40,648 nucleotides of DNA, from assembly GCA_027068765.1 (NCBI GenBank), contig JAMOMC010000059.1, positions 1 to 40,648 of the forward strand, read 5' to 3'. A program made the position numbers and the translations under genes. This stretch comes from Campylobacterales bacterium. Lineage in GTDB: Bacteria > Campylobacterota > Campylobacteria > Campylobacterales > QNZT01. Positions 27,109 through 31,655 of the stretch are shown in pieces. Each line of letters begins with the position of its first letter. The stretch's first letter is position 1. The notes under the pieces were generated by a model that worked only from the letters and a program-made list of their open reading frames with translations, was not told the DNA's origin and did no database searches.

Positions 27109-28644
27109 CTAATTTAAATCTGTAGATATAATTAAGTTAAATTTTGGGTCTTTATCTGTTTTATCAAATACATTTGAATCTATAACTTGACTAGTTATTT
27201 TATCTTTTATACCAATTCTACCAATTGGAGTGTAACCTCCATTAAAATAGTTTATATTTGCAAATCTAAGTGATGGAGTGTTTTTTTCTTGGATTGATAA
27301 AGCTATATAGTATTTACCATTTGGAGTGTTGGATGGAATTGATAAAGAGATATTTTCACTATAATCTCCCTCTATCCATTTTGTTATATCTACATCTGTT
27401 TTAGTATTGCTAACTATGTTAAAATTTTTATCAATCAAACTAACAATTAGTGACCATTTATAATAAAATGGAGCAGAGCCATCATTTGATATTTTAAAAC
27501 TTATATCAACTTTTTCACCTTGCTTGACATTCATTTTATAACTTGCATCTTTTAGAATAAATCTATATCCTAAAGCTTTATGAATTTTTTTAGCTCCTTC
27601 ATTGGCTTTTGGTGTTTTTTTATAGTTTGAAATCCACGATAAATCGCTCATGTGGTACTTTCTAATATTTTTAACCAACACATCAACCATAGCAGGATCT
27701 TCAATGCTTTGTTTCATTCTTAAAGAGGTAGCTTCATCCTTAAATGCCATACCTCCAAGACCTGTATTTGGTACATTTATATTGTAAGCTACTTCACCAA
27801 CATAAGGTTTTGTTTTCCATAAACTTGTATTCATTGTTTTATTGCCAGTCCAGTTTTGGGTAGGTTTTCCTTCAAGAGCTAAGCCAAAAAATTCTATCAA
27901 TGGAGTGGAGATAAAAGAGTTCCAATCGATACCAAATTTATTGCTAAGTATGGTACTTGGAATATATTCAAGAATGTTATTATTGTAGCCTGCAATTCCT
28001 GTAGTAGTTACATGTTTTTTTCTAAACTTACTAAATTCAGAGGTTAGGACACTAAGTGTCTTTTCATCATAAAAAGTATAATCGTGTTTATCTACATAAA
28101 ATTCACCATAAGAGCCGACAAGTCCCATCTCAATATAAGCTATATTTGGGTTATTATCCCATTTTTGCACAAGTTTTGGAATGAGAAACTTCAACATATT
28201 TTGAAACTCTTTGCTTTTGTAATATGTTGAGCTATTTAAATCTGTAAGCCATTTATATCCAGGATCGGTATGTGCAACAATACGGGGAATAATTTTTATA
28301 TTATTTTCAAATAGAGCATCTAACACTCCTGGATATATCTTTTTTTTGAATGATTTCTTATCTGTAGTTTTTACAAAATGAGTAAGTTTTAAATCATTTA
28401 TAACTTTATACTCATTATCATTAATTTTTTTAATTAGTGAATCTAGCGGAATGTAAAGTCTTTTTATTGAAGAGAGACCTACATCTTTTTTTAAAAAAGC
28501 AGCATCCCAGCTAGCATCCCAACCTTTAAATCCTTTGATTGGATTTATGATAGGTTTTGTATCCTCTGTCAATTGTATAGTTTGTGGATTTGCATAAGCG
28601 AAAGAGATAAACAAAAGTAGAGTAGTTATAATAATTTTTTTCAT
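27109..28644 (-). CDS. exported DUF4832-like, glycosidase-type protein
   Basis: This 511-residue protein has a signal peptide (about 1-18, ending FISFAYA). Residues 30-350 look like a TIM barrel of the glycoside-hydrolase A kind: NPIKGFKGW at 34-42, and IEMGLVGSYGEF at 171-182, in which Glu181 matches the GxxGxWGE-type glutamate of DUF4874/DUF4832 proteins. Residues about 365-510 form a beta-sandwich (ISNDGSAPFYYKWSLIVSL, NGKYYIALSIQE, GGYTPIGRIGI) typical of the DUF4832 part. A polysaccharide-binding or -cutting role outside the cytoplasm is inferred; no characterised member is known to me. The gene follows the propeller gene by 42 nt with a GGAG site, so it is the third gene of the PAS unit. 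Confidence 0.65.
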   Translation of the reverse strand: MKKIIITTLLLFISFAYANPQTIQLTEDTKPIINPIKGFKGWDASWDAAFLKKDVGLSSIKRLYIPLDSLIKKINDNEYKVINDLKLTHFVKTTDKKSFKKKIYPGVLDALFENNIKIIPRIVAHTDPGYKWLTDLNSSTYYKSKEFQNMLKFLIPKLVQKWDNNPNIAYIEMGLVGSYGEFYVDKHDYTFYDEKTLSVLTSEFSKFRKKHVTTTGIAGYNNNILEYIPSTILSNKFGIDWNSFISTPLIEFFGLALEGKPTQNWTGNKTMNTSLWKTKPYVGEVAYNINVPNTGLGGMAFKDEATSLRMKQSIEDPAMVDVLVKNIRKYHMSDLSWISNYKKTPKANEGAKKIHKALGYRFILKDASYKMNVKQGEKVDISFKISNDGSAPFYYKWSLIVSLIDKNFNIVSNTKTDVDITKWIEGDYSENISLSIPSNTPNGKYYIALSIQEKNTPSLRFANINYFNGGYTPIGRIGIKDKITSQVIDSNVFDKTDKDPKFNLIISTDLN

Positions 28645-28686
28645 TAAAATTCTCCAAATTTTTTATTAATTTGTTTTAGAATACAC

Positions 28687-30807
28687 TTATATACTTAAAA
28701 CAGCTATACTCTCTTTAAATGCTCTTTTTTTATAACCTTTAATATCATCACAATTTGTCAATGAGTCATATATATCTAATACAGAGTTTTTTATAGCTAT
28801 GTTTTTCAACTCTTCATCTTTTCCATAAAGTTCACTATAATTTAAAAAAGTTTTTTTCCAGTGTAACTCCCCTTTTTTTAAAGCAGGATCTATTGAGTTT
28901 AAGTATGCTAATTTTAGTGTAAAAGCAATGCTATCTTTTAGGTAGTCAATCTTTAAATACTCTTCAAGTAGATGCAAAGTTTCTTTGATATCTCCAGATA
29001 TTGCAACTTTTTTTGCACTCTCATTTATATTTTCAAACTCAGAAATAACTTCAAAATATCTAATTTCTTGTTCTAGAAATTCATTATCTTGGATAAGTTT
29101 AAAAATACCTATAAGATTTTTATCTTCTATCTGTTTGTCAAAATCTTCTAATACGGATATCTTTTTTAGCTGATTTAGAGCTTTATCTTTTACAGGTGCA
29201 AACTCTAGTAACCTTTTTGCTGTTAGGGTTGCACTCTTATAATCTTTTATTTTTATAGCTTTTTTAACATTTGTTAAAAGAAGTTCAGTTATAGAAATCA
29301 CTTTGTTATAAGTTTTTGTATCTTTTAAAAATTCATACTCTTTGATTAAATCAAAAAATTGAGGGAATTTTTTCTCTTTTAAAAGTGTGTCCGCTTTAAA
29401 AAATATAGTTGAATTTTCTAATAAATTTTTTATTGAGCTATTTTTTGAAGGTACATTTAGAAAACTTTGCAAGAGACCTTTCGCTCTTATTTTCTCACTA
29501 CTATTATTTGGATTTTTTGCAATTGTATTTTTTGCTTCATTAAAACATTTATGCCAAAATTCTTCAAGAGAGTGATATTTTTTTAATTTTTTTATATATA
29601 TAAACTCTTCAGCCAGTTTATAAGCTGTTGTAAAATCTTTTTTATCTACACAAGAGATAAATTGGGCAATTTCACTTTTTTGAGACATGTATAAATCAAA
29701 TTTTTTGCTAAAGTCCTCATTCTCCATAAATGCTAAAGCTGCATCTGTTGCCTCTTGAAGTTTGCCAAGTTCAATTAATGTTATGATTTTTTTTAAAACT
29801 AATTCTTTGTTTTCATAAAGTTTTTCTATAGTCCCGTCGAGATATAAAAGAGCATTTGCATCTATTAACTTTTTAGTTTTATCAAAATCTTCAATCTTAA
29901 GAGAAGCTAGTGATTCTTTAGAGTTTTTTTGCATATCACATATAAGTATACTACCATCAGCAAATGCCATGTAAAGGTTGTTTTCATTAAAATCTATAGA
30001 GTTCAATCCTCTGTTTTGTAAGGGTATATTTTTAAGGATTTTTCCTTTTTTCAAATCAACAATTAAAAAAGTATTATCTCTTGTTCCTACTACTGCATAG
30101 TTATCTGATTTATATGTTTTTATAGTAGTTAGCCAGTGTTGTCCTAAGTTTTTGTTATAGAGTATTTTTTTTGTTTTTAGCTCAAACGATAAGATGCTCC
30201 CATCTCTTAATGCAGAGTAAAGATGCTCATTGTCACTTGAAAAAACCATATCTTCAACCACAAATCCTGCTTCAAATGTATGAGTTAATTGCCAATTATC
30301 TGTATTGTATATTTCAATTTTTTTATCATATGAGCCAATTGCTACAAGTTTGTCATTTTTTGTAAAGATAATAGAAGATATCTCATCAGCTCTTGGGTTT
30401 AAGGTATAAATAATTTTTTTTACATCTATATCATATATCCATAAATCACCTATGTCGCTACCAATTAGAACTATTTTTGAATTATTGGAAAATTTAGTTA
30501 TAGATGCGGCTTCTTCTAGTTTTAAATTTTTAACAATTTTTAAACCCGCATTATCTTCGATAAAAGTTATAGACTTTGTATCTTTTTTGGGATAAGCATG
30601 AAGTGAGTTATTTGATATGTCAAAAACTTTTGTATACTCATGTAGGGTTAACTCTTTTTTTATGGCTGTTTTTTTATCAATACTATAAGTTGAACTATCC
30701 AGACGATAATGTATAAAGTTATTATCAATCATATCTATATTGTTCTCATTATGTTTTATAAAAACAGGAGAGTTATTTAATCGTAAAAGTTTTTTTGTAT
30801 GTACCAT
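28687..30807 (-). CDS. cytosolic WD40-like propeller plus helical-repeat protein
   Basis: This 706-residue protein lacks a signal peptide and membrane segment. Residues about 1-295 hold beta-propeller repeats of roughly 40 residues: SKIVLIGSDIGDLWIYDID, DKLVAIGSYDKKIEIYNTD, EHLYSALRDGSILSFELKT, NYAVVGTRDNTFLIVDLKK and NLYMAFADGSILICDMQ. Residues about 330-706 are all helical and read like degenerate TPR-type repeats (LQEATDAALAFMENEDF, FTTAYKLAEEFIYI, YKSATLTAKRLLEFAP, KETLHLLEEYLKI). No enzymatic motif is seen, so it is likely a scaffold. It begins 3 nt after the PAS gene stop, which argues for joint function. I know no characterised protein with this arrangement. Confidence 0.75.
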   Translation of the reverse strand: MVHTKKLLRLNNSPVFIKHNENNIDMIDNNFIHYRLDSSTYSIDKKTAIKKELTLHEYTKVFDISNNSLHAYPKKDTKSITFIEDNAGLKIVKNLKLEEAASITKFSNNSKIVLIGSDIGDLWIYDIDVKKIIYTLNPRADEISSIIFTKNDKLVAIGSYDKKIEIYNTDNWQLTHTFEAGFVVEDMVFSSDNEHLYSALRDGSILSFELKTKKILYNKNLGQHWLTTIKTYKSDNYAVVGTRDNTFLIVDLKKGKILKNIPLQNRGLNSIDFNENNLYMAFADGSILICDMQKNSKESLASLKIEDFDKTKKLIDANALLYLDGTIEKLYENKELVLKKIITLIELGKLQEATDAALAFMENEDFSKKFDLYMSQKSEIAQFISCVDKKDFTTAYKLAEEFIYIKKLKKYHSLEEFWHKCFNEAKNTIAKNPNNSSEKIRAKGLLQSFLNVPSKNSSIKNLLENSTIFFKADTLLKEKKFPQFFDLIKEYEFLKDTKTYNKVISITELLLTNVKKAIKIKDYKSATLTAKRLLEFAPVKDKALNQLKKISVLEDFDKQIEDKNLIGIFKLIQDNEFLEQEIRYFEVISEFENINESAKKVAISGDIKETLHLLEEYLKIDYLKDSIAFTLKLAYLNSIDPALKKGELHWKKTFLNYSELYGKDEELKNIAIKNSVLDIYDSLTNCDDIKGYKKRAFKESIAVLSI

Positions 30808-30810
30808 CTG

Positions 30811-31602
30811 TTAACCGTTCATAAAAGCTACTATAAAAGTACTCTCTTTATCTTCTTTTAATCGAAGAGAAAATCTTCTTCCATTACTCTCATTTTTGAA
30901 TGATACATCATAATCGTCGTTAAATGCAATCAATTCATCTTTCCAATCAATTAAACAATCTACACTTTTATCAAGTTCTATAATCTCTTCAATATTCGCA
31001 CAATCATTTGTAAGATTTGTTAAAAAATTATTTGCTATGTCTATATCAAATAAATCAAAAAAATCATCATTATAATGTAGTATATTGTCGTTTTTATCTA
31101 TGGAAATCAAAGGTACGGGAATAGACTTTAGTATTTGTTTGGTGTTTAGCTCAAATGCTTTGTCTGTTACAGCTTTTAAATTTTTACCATTTAATCTTTC
31201 TATTTCTTTCTCTTTTTGAATTAATTCTGTTATATCCTCACGAAGTCCGATAAACTCTATGATATTGTCATCTTCATCAAGTACTGGAACTATTGTCGCT
31301 TTTACAAAATATGATCCACCATCTTTTTTCAAATTTTCAACAATTCCTTTCCAAATTTTTTTAGATTTTATGGTACTCCACAAATCTTTAAATGCAAAAG
31401 AGGGCATATTGGGATGCCTTACTATATTGTGGGATCTTCCTATAAGCTCTTCTCTTGTGAAGCCAGAAATCTTACAAAATTCATCATTGATATAAGTAAT
31501 AATGCCTTTTGTATCTGTTTTGGAGACGATAGCAGAGGCATCTACTACCTTTTTATACTCTTTTAAAAGTTTAGAATCATTTATATTTGCAGTAGTTTCC
31601 AT
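30811..31602 (-). CDS. Aer/CetB-like PAS sensor without output domain
   Basis: This 263-residue cytosolic protein has an N-terminal PAS domain (about 15-125) very like that of the Aer aerotaxis receptor: SGFTREELIGRSHNIVRHP, then MPSFAFKDLWSTIKSKKIW and YFVKATIVPV. In Aer this region binds FAD; here the RHPD motif is RHPN. A helical linker (KEKEIERLNGKNLKAV) leads to a second, degenerate PAS domain (about 155-263). There is no kinase, GGDEF, EAL, methyl-accepting or DNA-binding domain, so it must act through a partner, as CetB does with CetA in Campylobacter. The frame is open to 31638, but AAGGAG at 31611-31616 fixes the ATG at 31602. A sigma28-like promoter precedes it. Confidence 0.8.
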   Translation of the reverse strand: METTANINDSKLLKEYKKVVDASAIVSKTDTKGIITYINDEFCKISGFTREELIGRSHNIVRHPNMPSFAFKDLWSTIKSKKIWKGIVENLKKDGGSYFVKATIVPVLDEDDNIIEFIGLREDITELIQKEKEIERLNGKNLKAVTDKAFELNTKQILKSIPVPLISIDKNDNILHYNDDFFDLFDIDIANNFLTNLTNDCANIEEIIELDKSVDCLIDWKDELIAFNDDYDVSFKNESNGRRFSLRLKEDKESTFIVAFMNG

Positions 31603-31628
31603 CAATGTGCTCCTTAGGTTAGTAGCAA

Positions 31629-31655
31629 ATATCGGCATTTTAAGTTAAAAGTGTA
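31629..31655 (-). promoter_or_regulatory. sigma28 (FliA)-like promoter of the PAS gene
   Basis: On the minus strand GCCGATAT (31629-31636) differs by one base from the sigma28 -10 GCCGATAA and contains the CGATWT core reported for Campylobacterota. TACACTTT (31648-31655), 11 nt upstream, matches six of eight bases of TAAAGTTT. The start would lie about 20 nt before the ATG, just upstream of the AAGGAG. Confidence 0.55.

Follow-up and report, generated by a model that had tools for sequence, protein, structure and literature searches.

The window, a stretch of 40,648 nt comprising positions 1 to 40,648 of contig JAMOMC010000059.1 of a Campylobacterales bacterium (assembly GCA_027068765.1), carries three complete ORFs in a row on the minus strand (27109-31602), encoding a PAS-domain sensor, a WD40/alpha-solenoid scaffold protein and a DUF4832 protein (Table 1). 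The gaps between them are 3 and 42 nt; the coordinates, the shared strand and both gaps agree with the earlier note on this DNA. For the PAS gene, ATG 31602, which is preceded by an AAGGAG sequence, is probably the start rather than ATG 31638. The sensor and scaffold genes sit after fliF-fliG-fliH-dxs. A scan of the locus for promoters and terminators was uninformative, its matches being no commoner than in shuffled sequences, and a plasmid search gave no match.

Table 1. Features of the sensor, scaffold and DUF4832 genes in the window.
Feature	Position	Strand	Basis and remarks
PAS protein called from the first ATG	30811-31638	-	ORF call
PAS-X sensor protein, 263 aa	30811-31602	-	Start ATG 31602; AAGGAG at 31615-31610
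PAS domain, residues ~19-126	31225-31548	-	Most similar in sequence to flavin PAS domains from MmoS, Aer and NifL; R62 and H63 match Aer R57 and H58, and N65 falls at Aer D60
Predicted linker/signal helix, residues 125-160	31123-31230	-	Low-confidence model, secondary structure only
X domain, residues ~141-263	30814-31182	-	Conserved C-terminal domain; PAS_8 E=0.0045; present in every sensor that partners the scaffold
WD40/alpha-solenoid scaffold protein, 706 aa	28687-30807	-	ORF, Pfam, AlphaFold2
WD40 beta-propeller, residues 1-292	29932-30807	-	27 predicted strands, about seven blades; G-beta/WDR61-like fold
Alpha-helical solenoid, residues 308-682	28762-29886	-	AlphaFold2; without a named family
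DUF4832 protein, 511 aa	27109-28644	-	Pfam; probable secretion signal; outside the conserved unit

The sensor contains a PAS fold (Pfam E=2.2e-20), for which a phmmer search of the PDB retrieved MmoS (3ewk, 3e-29), Aer (8dik, 2.8e-26) and NifL (2gj3, 1.1e-17) among the best matches. FAD binding by Aer requires Arg57, His58 and Asp60 (PMC2628428). The motif at these positions in the window protein is HNIVRHPNMP, which keeps the arginine and the histidine and has an asparagine in place of the aspartate. Judged from its sequence, the domain is likely to bind a flavin, although the Asn at the equivalent of Aer D60 makes FAD binding uncertain. The earlier note had considered the protein to be a PAS sensor lacking an output domain, a description that does not hold, as a further conserved domain spans residues ~141-263. 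This C-terminal half of the sensor (about 120 residues), named X here, is conserved among orthologues and resembles a degenerate PAS by a weak Pfam match only. The corresponding motif reads RHPD in some of the X proteins found elsewhere. Pfam detected no REC domain in the window sensor; REC is present in relatives sharing the X domain. Structure prediction covered single chains; the AlphaFold model of the PAS-X protein was poor (pLDDT 39) and was used for secondary structure only.

X is found behind several input architectures, namely PAS-X, PAS-PAS-X, REC-X, REC-PAS-X and PAS-X joined to a predicted membrane sensor that bears a CxxCH motif. By Pfam, these correspond to REC-X at locus L079, REC-PAS-X at L093, L095 and L180, and PAS-PAS-X at L092, with a Tll0287-like region carrying the CxxCH motif ahead of PAS-X at L076. 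X itself was left unnamed by Pfam in each of the architectures checked at these loci, and no Pfam or NCBIfam family names either X or the solenoid of the scaffold protein.

For the 706-residue product of the second gene, the proposed combination of a propeller with helical repeats was confirmed. WD40/propeller Pfam models match it with E-values down to 4.5e-21, and AlphaFold2 (mean pLDDT 74) predicts a propeller of 27 strands (about seven blades) and, after it, a long helical solenoid. Foldseek matched the propeller to G-beta (1e-17) and WDR61, both ordinary WD40 proteins. The scaffold family is present in 136 out of 399 Campylobacterales genomes. X was within reach at 29 of the 84 scaffold loci in a sample chosen by the propeller; its lack near most scaffold homologues indicates that members of the family also act in other ways or with partners encoded elsewhere. 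X-linked scaffolds were scattered over a tree of 87 rows built with a quick method and limited by several long branches, with at least nine changes of linkage. A search of genome contigs with the propeller alignment retrieved only three orthologues, in Campylobacterales MAGs, and two archaeal matches restricted to the propeller.

Several other arrangements were seen around scaffold genes. One X-less scaffold branch is paired with REC proteins of ~340-355 aa (L122, 3421-6550; L128; L136), with an MCP-like gene upstream in two cases. Another (L008, 1221-3323; L105; L119; L124) has a Ppx/GppA-like phosphatase gene as its fixed neighbour, overlapping by 1 nt or lying a few nucleotides away; a threonine-dehydratase-like gene is often upstream, and a sensor is absent nearby. 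Frame-broken or split scaffold genes lie beside intact-looking X genes at L088 (genome G395), L182 (G258), L183 (G180) and L095 (G295), which could reflect decay or sequencing error. WD40-like matches of ~316 aa in genomes of the same genus (L006, L007, L009 and L012) are NapL-like and lie beside NapD; they do not belong to the scaffold family. Directly after the NapL-/NapD-like genes, three same-genus genomes encode a ~160-aa protein that is CetB/Aer-like and consists of PAS alone (L006, 101-586; L007, 329-817; L012, 2730-3215), which suggests a link between a redox PAS and periplasmic nitrate reductase.

The linkage between X and the scaffold was assessed within the family of the window genome and across the order. 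In the same family, the gaps between the PAS-X and scaffold genes are 14, -1 and -1 nt in genomes G004, G005 and G006 (stop codon excluded), and G001 carries the pair split over contigs. The outer neighbours change. A cation symporter, a thioesterase-like protein or riboflavin synthase is encoded downstream of the pair in these relatives, and dxs, the upstream neighbour in the window, is followed by other genes in the relatives examined, mostly by a convergent fusA-like gene. Two modules that are only distantly related, both with a flavin-type PAS sensor, have a riboflavin synthase-like gene immediately after the scaffold (L013, 3625-4224; L176, 7243-7851). No consistent output gene adjoins the module at the loci compared.

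When residues 128-263 of the window protein alone were searched against 399 Campylobacterales genomes (E<1e-4), 14 matches were found outside its own clade, 10 of them in the same gene run as a WD40/solenoid gene. A profile built from a 13-row X alignment (profile A5; E<1e-9; the same 399 genomes) gave 41 matches, of which 38 were beside a ~700-aa WD40/solenoid gene, including two tandem X genes that are one gene away. The three exceptions are one match at a contig end (G281) and two, both in G295, that are not adjacent to a scaffold. The G281 match belongs to a row of genes at the end of contig C8 (L181, 1527-4563) consisting of a CetB-like PAS gene, a CetA-like MCP gene, a short X-like ORF and the PAS-X gene; contig C38 of this genome starts with a WD40/solenoid gene, so the two contigs may adjoin. 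As a check of the prediction, genome G425, outside the earlier sample, encodes a REC-PAS-X protein directly followed by a 713-aa WD40/solenoid protein (profile E=1.7e-125).

The X/scaffold pairs span ten families (f1, f5, f6, f8, f13, f14, f16, f17, f20 and f21), although the counts are not independent events, since a single genus group, g25, supplies about half of the linked pairs. The genes are divergent at L104, their order is reversed at L076, and an overlap of 22 nt recurs in f20. At a syntenic locus beside ispG in the Helicobacteraceae-like family f13, G425 has the REC-PAS-X gene and the WD40 gene of L069 is preceded by a REC gene that stands alone, indicating that the scaffold keeps a receiver neighbour even without X. 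That the PAS and propeller genes form a genuine unit is strongly supported. Since the input domain varies while X and the scaffold remain constant, X and the WD40/solenoid protein look like an interchangeable output module.

Our preferred reading, which we hold to be fairly likely, is that the PAS and propeller proteins together make up a signalling module of Campylobacterales, in which a modular sensor, here of the redox/energy PAS type, docks through X on a cytosolic WD40/solenoid scaffold. The architecture of the two proteins, their conserved linkage, the swapping of inputs and the joint movement of the two genes are shown by the comparisons above. For the mechanism, we infer the docking of X, its dependence on the state of the input and the existence of a scaffold client. 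A variable input, here an Aer-type and probably flavin-binding PAS domain, would be joined to the conserved X domain by a helix. The linker helix and X would respond to the flavin's redox state or, in relatives with REC, to phosphorylation of that domain. X would then bind the scaffold and change what it holds, in the manner of a response-regulator output that binds a partner protein. The module may be linked to taxis or motility, although support for this is weak. An X gene comes after CetB- and CetA-like genes at L181 and after cheR/cheD/cheB-like genes at L179, and the pair in the window comes after fliF-fliG-fliH-dxs; chemotaxis genes, however, are common.

The PAS protein could instead be a CetB-like half-receptor for a CetA-like chemoreceptor encoded elsewhere, with the WD40 protein as a mere operon neighbour or an assembly factor. 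The Aer/CetB type of the PAS domain, the CetB-like PAS and CetA-like MCP genes ahead of the X gene in G281 (L181) and the MCP-like gene ahead of the WD40/REC pair at L122 and L128 are compatible with such a role. However, CetB consists of a PAS domain without any further domain and is paired with CetA (PMC2628428), whereas the constant partner here is the WD40 protein. Moreover, the inputs joined to X include REC-X proteins without any PAS, and short CetB-like PAS genes occur separately in the same genus. This makes the half-receptor explanation improbable.

The earlier note had proposed that the three genes together make up a sensory system whose carbohydrate-active output acts at the cell surface. 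The third gene is indeed DUF4832-like: PF16116 matches residues 326-463 of its product with 82.4 bits, against a cut-off of 29.2 (E=5.1e-23). Judged by sequence, the N-terminus, MKKIIITTLLLFISFAYANPQ, is plausible as a Sec signal. A search of the PDB with this protein returned nothing. The gene lies on the same strand as the pair, and the 42-nt gap before it contains a ribosome-binding site and no terminator-like site; it may be co-transcribed with the pair. Additionally, some Gram-positives have DUF4832 genes next to Pel exopolysaccharide clusters (PMC7112168), which would suit such an output.

These points are outweighed by the distribution of the gene. It is absent from all of the pair-carrying relatives (G001, G004, G005 and G006). 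Homologues were found in only 3 of 349 Campylobacterales genomes, that of the window included, leaving 346 without one; the other two are distant and occur in genomes in which no propeller match was detected at E<=1e-20. The co-occurrence that had been suggested as a check in other genomes is thus seen for PAS-X with the scaffold and not for DUF4832; of the proposed three-gene unit, the PAS/propeller pair stands and the third member does not, and the inferred cell-surface output is not supported. A foreign origin of the DUF4832 gene was considered and rejected, as its GC3 and codon use are like those of its neighbours, leaving no compositional signal. Being missing in all pair-carrying relatives and apart from the scaffold elsewhere, which is the refuting condition that the earlier note had set, the gene is a chance or local, lineage-specific neighbour outside the mechanism, and we find a single three-gene system decidedly improbable.

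It is very unlikely that the scaffold is a bacterial membrane-coat-like (protocoatomer-type) protein through which the sensors regulate membrane remodelling or trafficking. A propeller followed by an alpha-solenoid in a single chain does occur in eukaryotic coats and in PVC bacteria (PMC2799638), and COPI_C matches the solenoid weakly (E=0.011), but this match (14.9 bits) is chance-like and falls under the family cut-off of 25 bits, the best propeller matches are ordinary WD40 proteins, and the architecture is generic. There is equally little to recommend an ancestral gene order, in which X and WD40 genes would be adjacent by inheritance without a functional link: the inheritance of both genes within one order and the concentration of about half of the pairs in g25 fit it, but the spread over ten families, the changing outer neighbours, the swapping of inputs with the link retained and the divergent and reversed arrangements at L104 and L076 argue for selection on the pair.

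Regarding the two-protein module, the open-access literature held no description of the pair, and nothing relevant was found there on WD40 proteins in Campylobacterota or on WD40 partners of REC or PAS proteins. What is new here is the unnamed adaptor X with its WD40/solenoid partner; sensors with a protein-binding output are a kind already known. More tentatively, X and the WD40/solenoid protein may constitute a new general output system in Campylobacterales, in which flavin PAS domains, receivers and possible heme-type membrane inputs converge on one adaptor whose control is exerted on a scaffold and not on transcription, enzymes or chemoreceptors. If so, 'orphan' PAS proteins and receivers of Campylobacterales that seemingly lack an output would gain one, in the form of an adaptor controlling a scaffold, and a widespread family of ~700-aa WD40/solenoid proteins would gain a function-linked partner.

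The module shares features with several known systems and departs from each of them. Like the membrane-coat-like proteins of PVC bacteria, the scaffold has a propeller and then a helical solenoid in one chain; it differs in showing no convincing sequence relationship to them, in being coupled to sensors and in belonging to a different phylum. The DUF4832 protein is a clear member of its family by domain, and is linked to the sensor/scaffold pair nowhere else. The PAS domain is nearest to the structures of Aer, MmoS and NifL and conserves Aer R57 and H58, whereas the sensor has Asn at D60, carries no HAMP/MCP, kinase or kinase-like part, and ends in X. RssB and PhyR are response regulators with a protein-binding output, and the REC-X relatives look like receivers whose output makes protein-protein contacts of this type. 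However, neither Pfam nor NCBIfam lists X as an output domain, the window copy has no REC, and the partner is a WD40/solenoid scaffold. The CetA/CetB system of Campylobacter jejuni, from the same order, also relies on a soluble PAS protein that signals to a separate partner. In the window, that partner is a WD40/solenoid protein instead of a HAMP/MCP protein, and the 263-aa sensor bears the additional X domain behind an exchangeable input.
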